This document shows positions 7,068 to 61,856 of a stretch of 64,000 bases of DNA, one piece after another. The notes beneath the pieces are model-generated. The model was not told where the DNA came from, searched no databases, and was given only the letters and a program-made list of their open reading frames with translations. Source of the stretch: Sphingomonas bacterium (GTDB taxonomy: Bacteria > Pseudomonadota > Alphaproteobacteria > Sphingomonadales > Sphingomonadaceae); assembly GCF_903642285.1 (NCBI RefSeq), contig NZ_CAHJWJ010000004.1:1-64000 (forward strand), given 5' to 3'. Numbering within the stretch: position 1 is the first letter of the stretch; each line of letters opens with the position of its first letter. The position numbers were made by a program, and so were the translations under genes.

Positions 7068-7097
7068 TAAATTCCTCCTCGTGCCGGGGAGGATTTA
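7068..7097. repeat. solo terminal repeat related to the ileS-inserted element
   Basis: A 30-bp hairpin (TAAATTCCTCC ... GGAGGATTTA) in the spacer between manA and the glycosyltransferase gene. Aligned by eye, 7069-7092 matches 20 of 24 positions of the terminal inverted repeat of the 138-bp element inside ileS (60764-60901). It may be a remnant or solo end of that family and may also act as a transcription terminator or attenuator. Confidence 0.6.
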
Positions 7098-58203: not shown

Positions 58204-58702
58204 TGGAATTCTCCACAGAAACAGGCTTCGGCTTCTCACGCACCAGCAGCGCACGGACGAGCAGCACCAGCACCCCTACCGTAATCGCCGCGTCCGCGAC
58301 ATTGAAGACCAAAAAGGGACGCCATTCGCCGATATGCAGATCGGCATAGTCGATGACATAGCCCAGCCGCACCCGGTCGACGATATTGCCGAACGCGCCG
58401 CCCAGCACGAAGCCAAGCGCGACCCGGTCCTGCCGACTGGTCTCGCGCGTCATCCACACCGCGACGCCGAGCGCGATCGCGCCGGTCATGGCGACGAGTG
58501 CCCAGCGCGTGACGCTGCCGTCCGCGGGCAGCAGCCCGAGCGACACGCCCACATTGGGCACGAAGCGCAGCGCGAAGAACGGCGTCAGGTGGCGGACGGC
58601 GCCGAGCATGTCGATGTGCAGCGGGCCGGTAACCATCAGCTTGATCGCCTGGTCGGCAACGAACACCGCGGCGGCGGTGGCGAAACCGTTGGCGCTACGC
58701 AT
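58196..58702 (-). CDS. lspA: lipoprotein signal peptidase
   Basis: A 168-residue four-helix inner-membrane aspartyl protease removing lipoprotein signal peptides. Catalytic D109 (GGAFGNIVDRV) and D137 (FNVADAAI), and D17 (VADQAIK) are in place. ATG 58702 overlaps the ileS stop by eight bases; a longer in-frame upstream reading lies antisense-free inside ileS but lacks homology and is rejected. Confidence 0.95.
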   Translation of the reverse strand: MRSANGFATAAAVFVADQAIKLMVTGPLHIDMLGAVRHLTPFFALRFVPNVGVSLGLLPADGSVTRWALVAMTGAIALGVAVWMTRETSRQDRVALGFVLGGAFGNIVDRVRLGYVIDYADLHIGEWRPFLVFNVADAAITVGVLVLLVRALLVREKPKPVSVENSNA

Positions 58703-61700
58703 GCGCGACCACGCTTTCGCAGCGGGCGCACAGGGTGCCGTCCTCGGTAACTTCGGGGAGGTGTCGCCAGCAGCGGCCGCATTTGTGGAAGTCGGTGCGA
58801 GTGACGGTGATCGGCACCGAACCACCGAATCCCTGCTTTGCTGGGTCCACAGTAACTTTGGCAACAATGAATATCTCGGCGAGATCGATATCATCTCTCT
58901 GAAAACGATCGTCTTGATACGGCGGCTGGCACACAACCTCAGCTTCCAAGCTCGATTTCACTTCTTTTGCCCGCCGGAGAGGCTCTATCTGAGAAGTTAC
59001 CACTTCACGAAGTTGGCGAACGAGCGTCCATCGCTCGAATATTGAGCCGCGTTCCACCTCCGGCAACACCGGCCATTCCAGGAAATGCACCGACCCGTCC
59101 TCGCTCGGGAAGCGCGCCTGCCAGACCTCTTCGGCGGTAAAGCACAGCACCGGCGCGGCGTAGCGGACCAGCGCGTGGTACAGGGTGTCGAGCACCGTCC
59201 GGTACGCCCGCCGCTTCGGGTCGCCGGGCGCGTCGCAATACAGCGAGTCCTTGCGGATATCGAAAAAGAACGCCGACAAATCGTCCTGCGCGAAATCGGT
59301 CAGCAGGCGGGTGTAGCGGTTGAACTCATACCCGCCGACCGCCTCGCGCAGTTCGGTATCGAGCATCGCCAGCCGGTGGAGGATGTAGCGCTCCAGCTCG
59401 GGCATCTCCGCGACCGGGACCTTCTCCGCCTCCTCGAACCCGTCGAGCGCGCCGAGCAGATAGCGGAAGGTGTTGCGCAGCTTGCGATAGGCGTCGGAGG
59501 CGGTGGCGAGGACCTCCTTGCCGATCTTCACATCGTCGAAATAATCGGTCGACGCGACCCACATGCGCAGGATATCCGCGCCGCTCTCGCCGATGATCTT
59601 CAGCGGATCGACGACATTGCCGAGCGACTTGGACATCTTGCGCCCCTGCCCGTCGAGCGCGAAGCCGTGGGTCAGGACGGCGTCGTACGGTGCGCGCCCG
59701 CGGGTGCCGCAGGATTCGAGCAGCGACGACTGGAACCAGCCGCGATGCTGGTCCGACCCCTCGACATACAGGTTCGCGCGGACGTCGGGGCCGTAGCGTT
59801 GTTCGACCGTGAAGACGTGCGTGCAGCCGGAATCGAACCAGACGTCGAGGATGTCCTTGACGGGTTCATAGTCGGCGAGCGCATGGTCCGGCCCGAGCAG
59901 CGCCTGGTGGTCGTCGGCATACCACGCGTCCGCGCCGCGTTCCTCGAACGCCGCGACGATGCGCGCGTTGACCGCGGGGTCATTCAGATACTGGCCCGTC
60001 GCGCGGTTCACATAGAGCGCGATCGGCACGCCCCAGGCGCGCTGGCGGCTGATGACCCAGTCGGGCCGGCCGGCGACCATCGCGGTGATCCGGTTCTCCG
60101 CGCGCGCAGGGACCCAGCGCGTGGCGGCGATGGCGTCGAGTGCGACTTCGCGGAGGGTGGCACCGTTCGACGACCCCTCTCCTTCCAGGAGAGGGGTGAG
60201 CGGCGAAGCCGCGAGGGGTGAGGACAGGTCGGCCAGAGGACTGTCCTCACCCTCCCGCCGCTCCGCGGCTCCTTCCCTCTCCTGAAAGGAGAGGGACTGT
60301 GTGTCCGACGCCTCGCTTCGCGAGCCGACCTCCGCGCTGCGACCTGCCCCCGGCAGGTCGCTGGTCGCGCTCCGGTCCATCGGAATAAACCATTGCGGCG
60401 TGGCGCGGAAAACAACCTTCGCCTTCGACCGCCACGAATGCGGATAGCTGTGCGCATAGTCGTCGCTCGCCGCCAGCAACGCCCCCGCCGCGCGCAGATC
60501 CGCACAGATCGGGCCGGCTTCCTTGATGTCGCCTCCGGCTCCGGCGGCGACGAACTTCTTGTTGATGACGCTCCCCTGCCCGCCGAGCCACGCCCAGTCC
60601 GCCCGGTACATCCCCGCGCCGTCGACCGCGAAGACGGGGTCGATGCCATATTGCTTGCAGAGTTCGAAATCGTCCTCGCCGTGATCGGGTGCCATGTGGA
60701 CGAGCCCGGTGCCCGCGTCGGTGGTGACGAAATCGCCGGGTAGCATGGGGCGAAGTCGGCTAAAAAATCCTCCCCGGGACGGGGAGGTGGCAGCCGCGCC
60801 AGCGGCTGACGGAGGGGGGGCGGCGTCACGCGGTTCGCTAAGTGGACAACCCCCTCCACCATGCTGCGCATGGTCCCCCTCCCCGTCCCGGGGAGGATTT
60901 TCCAGTCGCCACATCGGGTGGCGGACCATTGCGCCTTCGAGCTGGGAGCCTTTGATCCGCAGTGGAACATCGCCGGCAACGATGCCCGTTCGCCGCTCGA
61001 ACTCGGGAAGAAGCTCTTCCGCGACAAGATAGCGAAAATCGACGCCACCCTGGTAGCAAAGCGCGTACGCAATCTCCGGCCCATAAGCCAAAGCCTGGTT
61101 CACCGGAATCGTCCAAGGCGTCGTCGTCCAGATCACCGCATGCGCACCGACCAGTTCCGGCGCGTTGGGTGCCTCGACGATCTCGAACGCCACGTCGATC
61201 TGCGTCGAGACGATGTCCTCATATTCGACCTCCGCCTCGGCAAGCGCGGTCTTCTCGACGGGCGACCACATCACCGGCTTGGCCCCGCGGTACAGCTGGC
61301 CGGACTCCGCGAACTTCAGCAATTCGCCGACGATCGCGGCCTCCGCGTCGTATTTCATCGTCAGATACGGATCGGCCCAATCGCCCATCACCCCCAGCCG
61401 CTCGAACTCCGCGCGCTGCACCGCGACCCATTTCTCCGCGTACGCACGGCATTCGGCGCGGAACTGGGCGACGGGGACGTCGTCCTTGTTCAGCTTCCTG
61501 GCGCGGTACGCTTCCTCGACCTTCCATTCGATCGGCAGGCCGTGGCAGTCCCAGCCAGGGACGTAGGGCGCATCCTTGCCGAGCAGCGATTGGCTGCGCA
61601 CGATGATGTCCTTCAGGACCTTGTTCATCGCGTGGCCCATATGGATGTCGCCATTCGCATAGGGCGGGCCGTCGTGGAGGATGAACCGCTCGCGCCCGGC

Positions 61701-61856
61701 GCGCCGTTCGCGCAGGCGGTCGTAGAGGCCGATCTTCTCCCACCGCGCGAGGATCGCGGGTTCCTTCTGGGCGAGGCCGGCCTTCATCGGGAAGTCGGTC
61801 TTCGGCAGGAAGACGGTGTCGCGGTAGTCGCGTTGCGGGTCGGTGGCGTCGGTCAT
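58695..61856 (-). CDS. ileS: isoleucyl-tRNA synthetase with two in-frame repeat insertions
   Basis: A 1053-residue class I synthetase charging tRNA-Ile. HIGH motif HMGH (72-75), editing domain with WTTTPWTIP and GTGLVHMAPDHGEDDF, KMSKS (740-744) and a C-terminal zinc site CGRCWRH/CARC are intact. It is roughly 100 residues longer than expected: residues 319-365 and about 497-561 are encoded by palindromic repeats (60764-60901 and 60175-60368). Both lie between conserved blocks, in the editing region and just after QWFIPMDR. The frame stays open, so the protein may be active. ATG 61856 overlaps the ribF stop. Confidence 0.95.
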   Translation of the reverse strand: MTDATDPQRDYRDTVFLPKTDFPMKAGLAQKEPAILARWEKIGLYDRLRERRAGRERFILHDGPPYANGDIHMGHAMNKVLKDIIVRSQSLLGKDAPYVPGWDCHGLPIEWKVEEAYRARKLNKDDVPVAQFRAECRAYAEKWVAVQRAEFERLGVMGDWADPYLTMKYDAEAAIVGELLKFAESGQLYRGAKPVMWSPVEKTALAEAEVEYEDIVSTQIDVAFEIVEAPNAPELVGAHAVIWTTTPWTIPVNQALAYGPEIAYALCYQGGVDFRYLVAEELLPEFERRTGIVAGDVPLRIKGSQLEGAMVRHPMWRLENPPRDGEGDHAQHGGGGCPLSEPRDAAPPPSAAGAAATSPSRGGFFSRLRPMLPGDFVTTDAGTGLVHMAPDHGEDDFELCKQYGIDPVFAVDGAGMYRADWAWLGGQGSVINKKFVAAGAGGDIKEAGPICADLRAAGALLAASDDYAHSYPHSWRSKAKVVFRATPQWFIPMDRSATSDLPGAGRSAEVGSRSEASDTQSLSFQEREGAAERREGEDSPLADLSSPLAASPLTPLLEGEGSSNGATLREVALDAIAATRWVPARAENRITAMVAGRPDWVISRQRAWGVPIALYVNRATGQYLNDPAVNARIVAAFEERGADAWYADDHQALLGPDHALADYEPVKDILDVWFDSGCTHVFTVEQRYGPDVRANLYVEGSDQHRGWFQSSLLESCGTRGRAPYDAVLTHGFALDGQGRKMSKSLGNVVDPLKIIGESGADILRMWVASTDYFDDVKIGKEVLATASDAYRKLRNTFRYLLGALDGFEEAEKVPVAEMPELERYILHRLAMLDTELREAVGGYEFNRYTRLLTDFAQDDLSAFFFDIRKDSLYCDAPGDPKRRAYRTVLDTLYHALVRYAAPVLCFTAEEVWQARFPSEDGSVHFLEWPVLPEVERGSIFERWTLVRQLREVVTSQIEPLRRAKEVKSSLEAEVVCQPPYQDDRFQRDDIDLAEIFIVAKVTVDPAKQGFGGSVPITVTRTDFHKCGRCWRHLPEVTEDGTLCARCESVVAHA
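60175..60368. repeat. palindromic repeat element inserted in ileS (family F)
   Basis: 60175-60295 is a 121-bp imperfect inverted repeat with arms starting CCCTCTCCTTCCAGGAGAGG and an inner GGTGAGGACAG pair. The following 60296-60368 also has no IleRS homology (GGCAGGTCG-type segment). Together they encode about 65 extra residues (SATSDLPGAG...LLEGEGSSNG) between QWFIPMDR and TLREVALDAI. The reading frame is kept across it. Confidence 0.85.
60764..60901. repeat. 138-bp MITE-like element inserted in ileS (family E)
   Basis: Perfect 24-bp terminal inverted repeats (AAAATCCTCCCC followed by GGGACGGGGAGG) at 60764-60787 and 60878-60901 enclose 90 bases. 138 is a multiple of three and the minus-strand frame is open: it adds about 46 residues (ENPPRDGEGDHAQ...SPSRGGFF) to IleRS between HPMW and the LPGDFVTTDAGTG block. 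No target duplication is obvious. A degenerate solo end is at 7068-7097. Confidence 0.9.

Follow-up and report, generated by a model that had tools for sequence, protein, structure and literature searches.

An isoleucyl-tRNA synthetase gene (ileS) of Sphingomonas, lying in the 64,000-nucleotide stretch of contig that we analysed (the window), very probably carries a coding palindrome that works like those of Rickettsia (RPEs). Such a repeat would have been inserted in ileS, would be translated with it, and would survive in a tolerant loop until it decays or is replaced. Tolerated loops of essential proteins seem to be rewritten again and again by palindromic repeats, and we infer from the conservation of the reading frame that the insert in ileS is translated.

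The palindromic element in ileS

The features of the window are as follows:

58695..61856, minus strand: ileS, isoleucyl-tRNA synthetase (IleRS), 1053 amino acids in a single uninterrupted frame
60764..60901, unstranded: element 1, a palindromic repeat in frame in ileS, the insert starting at about residue 319
60764..60787, plus strand: left 24-bp terminal inverted repeat, a hairpin by itself (CCTCCCCG-GGA-CGGGGAGG)
60878..60901, minus strand: right 24-bp terminal inverted repeat, matching the reverse complement of the left repeat exactly
60175..60295, unstranded: element 2, a distinct palindromic repeat, likewise in frame in ileS (loop IPMD...ATLRE)
60300..60375 (limits approximate), unstranded: older palindromic module adjoining element 2, peptide ...SDLPGAGRSAEVG...
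7068..7097, unstranded: relic of the element-1 family, 30 nt, intergenic, reading like two outer ends fused

The sequence-only reading of this DNA had described a 138-bp element with perfect 24-bp inverted ends, open and in frame in ileS, and both statements hold. The left end (AAAATCCTCCCCGGGACGGGGAGG at 60764-60787) is the exact reverse complement of 60878-60901, each end forms a small hairpin of its own, and imperfect arms extend to 34 nt at 88% complementarity. The 1053-residue frame crosses 60764-60901 without a stop, and the gene is the sole ileS match at E <= 1e-100 in its genome (G000). The RNA of 60755-60910 (minus strand) has a predicted fold of -107.8 kcal/mol (z -8.4), a value equalled by none of 200 shuffles. 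On the minus strand the last hairpin of the element (60769-60787) is followed by UUUUUU, so that the element supplies the ileS coding sequence with a site resembling a terminator; one such site was found in the scanned stretch against 0.5 expected (sd 0.8), which is not above chance. A search of 60100-61000 against Rfam gave 17 matches with E <= 1 (best 1.1e-6), comprising 15 microRNA families, Chloroflexus-1 and the CPEB3 ribozyme, none of them at gathering score, and these were taken as chance fits of hairpins.

In the closest relative compared (G271), whose IleRS is 83% identical overall and 88% over core columns, the anchors on either side of the element-1 site (site C) are 87 nt apart, against 216 nt in the query genome. 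The net gain is 129 nt or 43 codons, a little below the 46 or so residues first estimated. The site corresponds to a short turn in the solved IleRS 8c9e, where query residues 319 and 372 pair with residues 305 and 309, so that 3 residues stand in place of 52. A structure predicted from 29 sequences had a mean pLDDT of 58, with the inserts at about 27-30; much of the remaining protein was also very low, and for this reason no claim is made from the prediction.

Comparison was extended to ileS of 120 same-genus genomes (37, plus 23 loci, plus 60 taken in order of similarity), drawn from 250 genomes searched, of which 247 matched; because the last 60 were so chosen, the set leans to relatives of the query. 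One frame is kept over at least 95% of the core columns in 115 of the 120 rows, and the five short rows come from contigs that end within the gene. Alignment with these relatives confirmed the insertion: exactly 17 residues lie between the anchors in 111 of 119 same-genus sequences, against 60 in the query. The insert is thus not conserved across IleRS, and an ancient conserved domain was rejected on the same count.

Sequence comparison places element 1 in a dispersed family whose predicted fold is conserved and covaries. BLAST with the element gave 50 matches in its own genome, both strands counted, and a covariance model built from 17 copies placed the family at 25 distinct positions at E of 4.3e-8 or better, a count that omits three weaker places of 34-35 nt and includes one (C31:29928) which by eye is a cross-match to another repeat type. 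Of 61 genomes searched, 37 belong to the same genus, and 36 of these have the family, as does one of the 24 others (G038, E 7e-5). Paired cells amounted to 94.6% against 89.1% in shuffles, and 39 cells had changed on both sides, compared with 12.8 (sd 2.9) in shuffles and 5-10 in slid controls; on a further measure, that of additional pair types, 51 of 500 shuffles did as well.

The term MITE-like, used in the first description, fits in part: the terminal inverted repeats and the multiple dispersed copies agree with it, and neither a target duplication nor, in a search for Y1_Tnp, a source transposase was found. No target-site duplication was seen by eye beside 18 copies, and the empty sites compared were too diverged. 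We looked for a clean empty site with a target duplication in G271 and in the truB locus of G032 and found none: G271, with its 83% identical IleRS, is too diverged, and the truB locus of G032 is not empty but holds a shortened remnant.

Element 2 has arms of 21 nt (95%) and a fold z of -9.4. It is absent from G271, so that the query has 126 nt or 42 codons more at this point, and similar sequences occur at other places in the query genome. BLAST gave no link between the two elements at E <= 0.01; one 21-nt end hairpin is 76% alike between them. The module at 60300-60375 is common to G271 and other members of the genus. The genus alignment contains a further hypervariable stretch at about IleRS 265-307, with 44-98 residues between anchors and repeat-like peptides in some species (RHPGGGRDPL...GLRRGDG). 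The short sequence at 7068-7097, described initially as a solo end, is intergenic as stated, between two coding-like ORFs, but its 30-nt hairpin reads like two outer ends fused.

Copies inside genes and the recurrence of insertion sites

The genome-wide search showed that copies of element 1 lie both within and between genes, as had been anticipated. Five of the 25 places are inside conserved genes of the query genome, with the same frame continuing on both sides:

ileS: in frame
valS: in frame; NF004349 match broken at residue 501
biotin carboxylase/PccA-like (pccA-like) gene: in frame; matches break between about 386 and 439
dihydrolipoyl acyltransferase E2-like gene: in frame, between the lipoyl and catalytic domains
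metH: in frame, within the activation domain

Around metH, three copies occur within about 3.5 kb (L177:1664-5187, contig 13), one before the upstream ORF, one between both ORFs and one in frame inside metH itself. For genomes other than the query, 40 further copies were taken in the list order of model matches and put through a test of ORFs and base composition; five of these were also in genes, namely leuS (G010), truB (G025 and G029) and E2 (G028 and G021, the latter assigned by position).

The element is read differently in different hosts. The peptide NPPRDGE occurs in ileS and valS, ILPGTGRGT in E2 and leuS, and SSP.RGGG or SSPLAGRG in truB and metH, so that all three reading frames are in use across the in-gene copies and the peptide itself is therefore not the selected unit. 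Frames were open in 16 of 24 cases among the four in-gene copies measured and in 65 of 78 among 13 other copies. Open frames are thus common in all copies of this GC-rich element, which makes it tolerable, but openness alone is weak evidence; since in-gene copies are no more open than the others, we abandoned the argument from open frames alone to coding.

More telling is the behaviour of the sites themselves. The length of site C is bimodal, with 17 residues in the 111 genomes mentioned above and 49-78 in the other eight. The filled sites hold four types: the query's own (G000), PHPNPSPEGEG (G019, G022), REGGNP (G189, G246) and GESRG (G205, G229, G077). These form three BLAST groups at E <= 0.01, namely the own type, SPEGEG, and REGGNP together with GESRG, the last two being linked at 79-87% over 39 nt in a stretch that includes a shared flank. 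A copy of the query's own family is found at this site in only one of 119 genomes. When the core columns of IleRS were put through a quick FastTree, the filled rows came out in six separate parts, judged by eye and with many weak forks.

Loop D, which contains element 2, varies from 6 to 70 residues in 118 genomes and has at least eight peptide types by eye; nine representatives form three single-linkage BLAST groups at E <= 0.01, with element 1 linked to none. It is long in most same-genus rows, several genomes having only 6-16 residues, and has 2 residues in nine of the ten order-level sequences shown, G038 being longer. Fold scores (24 shuffles, two control windows per gene) were below z -3 in 8/8 filled C sites and 75/117 D loops, against 6/235 control windows, and in only one of 23 D loops of 30 residues or fewer.

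A similar pattern is seen in three further host genes, each of which was found in 22 of 23 same-genus genomes searched. The valS loop is filled in eight of 22, at z -5.2 to -10.7, the 14 unfilled loops being at z -1.0 or higher (controls below the threshold, 1/44), and at least three peptide types are present. In pccA, z was below -3 in 10/22 loops (controls 3/44); ten rows have an insert of at least 15 residues, and the two sets differ by one each way, G016 being long with z -2.3 and G019 short with z -4.6. The E2 linker was below z -3 in 14/22 (controls 0/22). Several peptide types were recognised by eye at each of these three sites. Judged by sequence, different palindromes recur at the same codon sites in core enzymes across related species.

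Turnover of the repeats and their position at gene starts

Near-identical relatives carry different repeat types at loop D. G010 and G137, for example, are nearly identical outside the loop and have different types within it, and one clade of 19 rows contains four types, belonging to two BLAST groups by their representatives. In ileS of G029 and G201 one palindrome at loop D is nested within another. Intergenic copies of the query genome also include three (C13:62663, C18 and C39) in which a second, different palindrome is nested, as judged by eye:

L177:1664-1859: nested intergenic copy
L180:1980-2182: nested intergenic copy
L181:1959-2160: nested intergenic copy

Decay can be followed in truB, where the copy in G032 keeps the outer ends and falls 102 nt short of that in G029, still in frame (91 against 193 nt between anchors). 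The relic at 7068-7097 looks like one of the same kind as this shortened copy. The IleRS proteins of G029 and G032 are nearly identical outside the loops, yet the element model matches 30 times in the first genome and 4 times in the second, counting both strands, and this makes them a good pair for the study of recent element movement. Five filled C sites (G189, G246, G077, G205 and G229) share an altered flank, HPIYN...LAFF, though they are far apart on the IleRS tree; alleles may therefore also spread by recombination, and the flank suggests that those of site C have done so besides arising by fresh insertion.

Most copies in the query genome are outside genes (18 of the 23 with both ends recognisable, the count omitting C10:69915, whose right end is not recognisable, and the apparent cross-match C31:29928). 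Thirteen of these 18 have their terminal GGGGAGGA 3-13 nt upstream of the start codon of an ORF that is 100 codons or longer and has coding-like GC2/GC3 (L002, L003, L008, L010, L015, L179, L180 and others), and nine control windows farther out contained 0-6 ends each, of 36. The same placement was found in 16 of 35 copies from other genomes, where nine farther windows had 0-6 ends of 70 each. Genes downstream of such copies include, by family match, murC, hisA, lolD and an MgsA/RarA ATPase, together with two which, from their first residues, we take to be argF-like and acpS-like. The same start genes reappear across species: hisA-like in G000 and G004, acpS-like in G000, G025 and G004, and argF-like in G000, G024 and G034.

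The GGGGAGGA end resembles a Shine-Dalgarno sequence and is also base-paired within the terminal stem. It is possible that the intergenic copies are portable Shine-Dalgarno sequences or ribosome-binding sites held in a stem. A wider reading in two parts would take the loops of IleRS, ValRS, LeuRS, TruB, PDH-E2, PccA and MetH as docking loops that receive successive palindrome families, which would insert, nest and replace each other by a structure-guided, RAYT-independent mechanism; the elements would also home to gene starts, where GGGGAGGA would be a Shine-Dalgarno sequence in a stem and possibly a translational switch. Taking both parts jointly, we put this forward only tentatively and think it unlikely.

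Origin of the inserts and comparison with known systems

Under the interpretation that we favour, element 1 would be a non-autonomous palindromic interspersed repeat of Sphingomonas, inserted into ileS and now translated within the enzyme. Dispersal would be by transposition of some kind, with insertions falling widely and most of those in genes being lost. The survivors would be those whose length is a multiple of three, which are open and which lie in tolerant loops or domain linkers, purifying selection acting as the filter, and because tolerant loops are few, different repeat types would come to occupy the same codon position in different species. In later life a copy might suffer in-frame deletion, receive nested elements or be swapped. 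The mobilising enzyme is probably not a RAYT: the query genome has no match to Y1_Tnp/RAYT (PF01797), controls being positive in 5 of 14, and a RAYT was rejected as the mover for this genome. Such a match occurs in three of 37 same-genus genomes. One of the three is G006, which is also the only one of the 37 in which the element-1 family was not matched.

One rival holds that shared sites reflect horizontal exchange of a few ileS and valS alleles and not repeated insertion. It would account for the flank HPIYN...LAFF in five filled C sites far apart on the tree, whose two repeat types are BLAST-linked, and for G010 and G137, which have different types at loop D while being nearly identical outside it. 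Yet three unlinked groups at site C and at least three valS peptide types need several insertions in any case, and the own-family copy is at site C in a single genome of the 119, so that exchange in place of insertion, although possible, seems to us on the unlikely side. That the inserts are instead useful, lineage-specific disordered loops under positive selection, for regulation, for example, or contacts among tRNA enzymes, is in our judgement improbable. The in-gene copies do include three class I synthetases and TruB, and loop D is long in most same-genus rows against 2 residues in nine of ten order-level sequences, but differing types and frames give unlike peptides at the same place and several genomes of the genus manage with 6-16 residues at loop D.

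The very strong hairpin (z -8.4), and the apparent cost of inserts in essential enzymes, could also be taken to mean that the insert never reaches the protein, either because it is cut out of the mRNA or because the ribosome skips it, as in programmed bypassing. Removal would not need an open frame, yet 115 of the 120 ileS rows hold one; the decay in truB was also in frame (102 nt), and no Rfam family, introns included, reached gathering score in 60100-61000, all of which makes this very improbable. An assembly or contamination artefact, which a dispersed repeat in a 54-contig draft might bring to mind, can hardly be credited, as the ileS copy differs from the others (the next best is 80% identical), the genome is 99.43% complete with 0 contamination, and that codon also carries inserts in relatives, some of them assembled in few contigs.

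The first coding palindromes to be described were those of Rickettsia, bacteria that are difficult to culture and to manipulate. A free-living genus now offers several repeat types and several host genes together with sites both filled and empty, nested copies and relics in decay, and this makes it testable how elements enter essential genes, why the same loops are targeted repeatedly, and at what cost or benefit. Annotators should be warned that loops of 40-70 residues in many Sphingomonas core enzymes are repeat DNA.

RPEs are described as palindromes of about 100-150 bp with inverted ends, in several families, found in frame in conserved genes and between genes (PMC2229807, PMC10969869). 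Element 1 is comparable in being a 138-bp palindrome with perfect 24-bp ends and z -8.4, in having in-frame copies in several unrelated conserved genes of the query and its relatives, and in belonging to a lineage with several families, as seen in the loop-D types and their BLAST groups. The likeness to RPEs proposed at the outset is supported by the five in-frame copies in conserved genes and by the empty site in most same-genus IleRS. An RPE-bearing guanylate kinase of Rickettsia is reported to be active (PMC2229807), and such inserts can therefore be tolerated.

The proposal that sphingomonads had no described equivalent stands in so far as nothing on sphingomonad palindromes, MITEs, REP or RAYT appeared among the literature matches listed. 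RPEs are not the sole precedent, however, since coding palindromes are known also from Wolbachia (going by the title of a cited work), from the enterobacterial ERIC/RU repeats and from Neisseria, where 107-bp elements occur in genes (PMC2229807). ERIC and RU-1, RU-2 and RU-3 are small MITE-like repeats that occur as in-frame fusions with conserved genes (PMC2759123, PMC2229807); by description the in-frame fusion is alike and the taxa differ, and the portions of these sources that deal with them make no mention of one codon site occupied recurrently. REP and REPIN sequences resemble element 1 in that a pair of small hairpins, inverted relative to each other, flanks a spacer, and differ in that the element-1 genome has no Y1_Tnp/RAYT match. 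The GTAG and CGTC tags named for REP (PMC3733652) were not seen by eye at the element ends, which are AAATCCTCCCC/GGGGAGGATTT. The CIR of Caulobacter are likewise long palindromic repeats of an alphaproteobacterium, and are characterised, in the relevant part of PMC2229807, as not found inside genes and as having stops in all frames, whereas copies of element 1 are inside genes and 65 of 78 frames were open in the 13 other copies. Coxiella has about 50 copies of QMITE1 and QMITE2, the first often overlapping ORFs and the second targeted by another element (PMC5896051), and the abstract of that account describes no in-frame inserts of essential enzymes.

Likened by description, the elements of Rickettsia and Wolbachia come closest in palindrome size, inverted ends, several families, and in-frame as well as intergenic copies. 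Sphingomonas, by contrast, belongs to another order, is free-living and GC-rich, and has codon sites reused by different repeat types and intergenic copies that abut start codons. The kind of element is thus a known one; going by the literature matches listed, three things appear to be new, namely the taxon, the way in which differing repeat types come to reuse one codon site, and the placement at gene starts.
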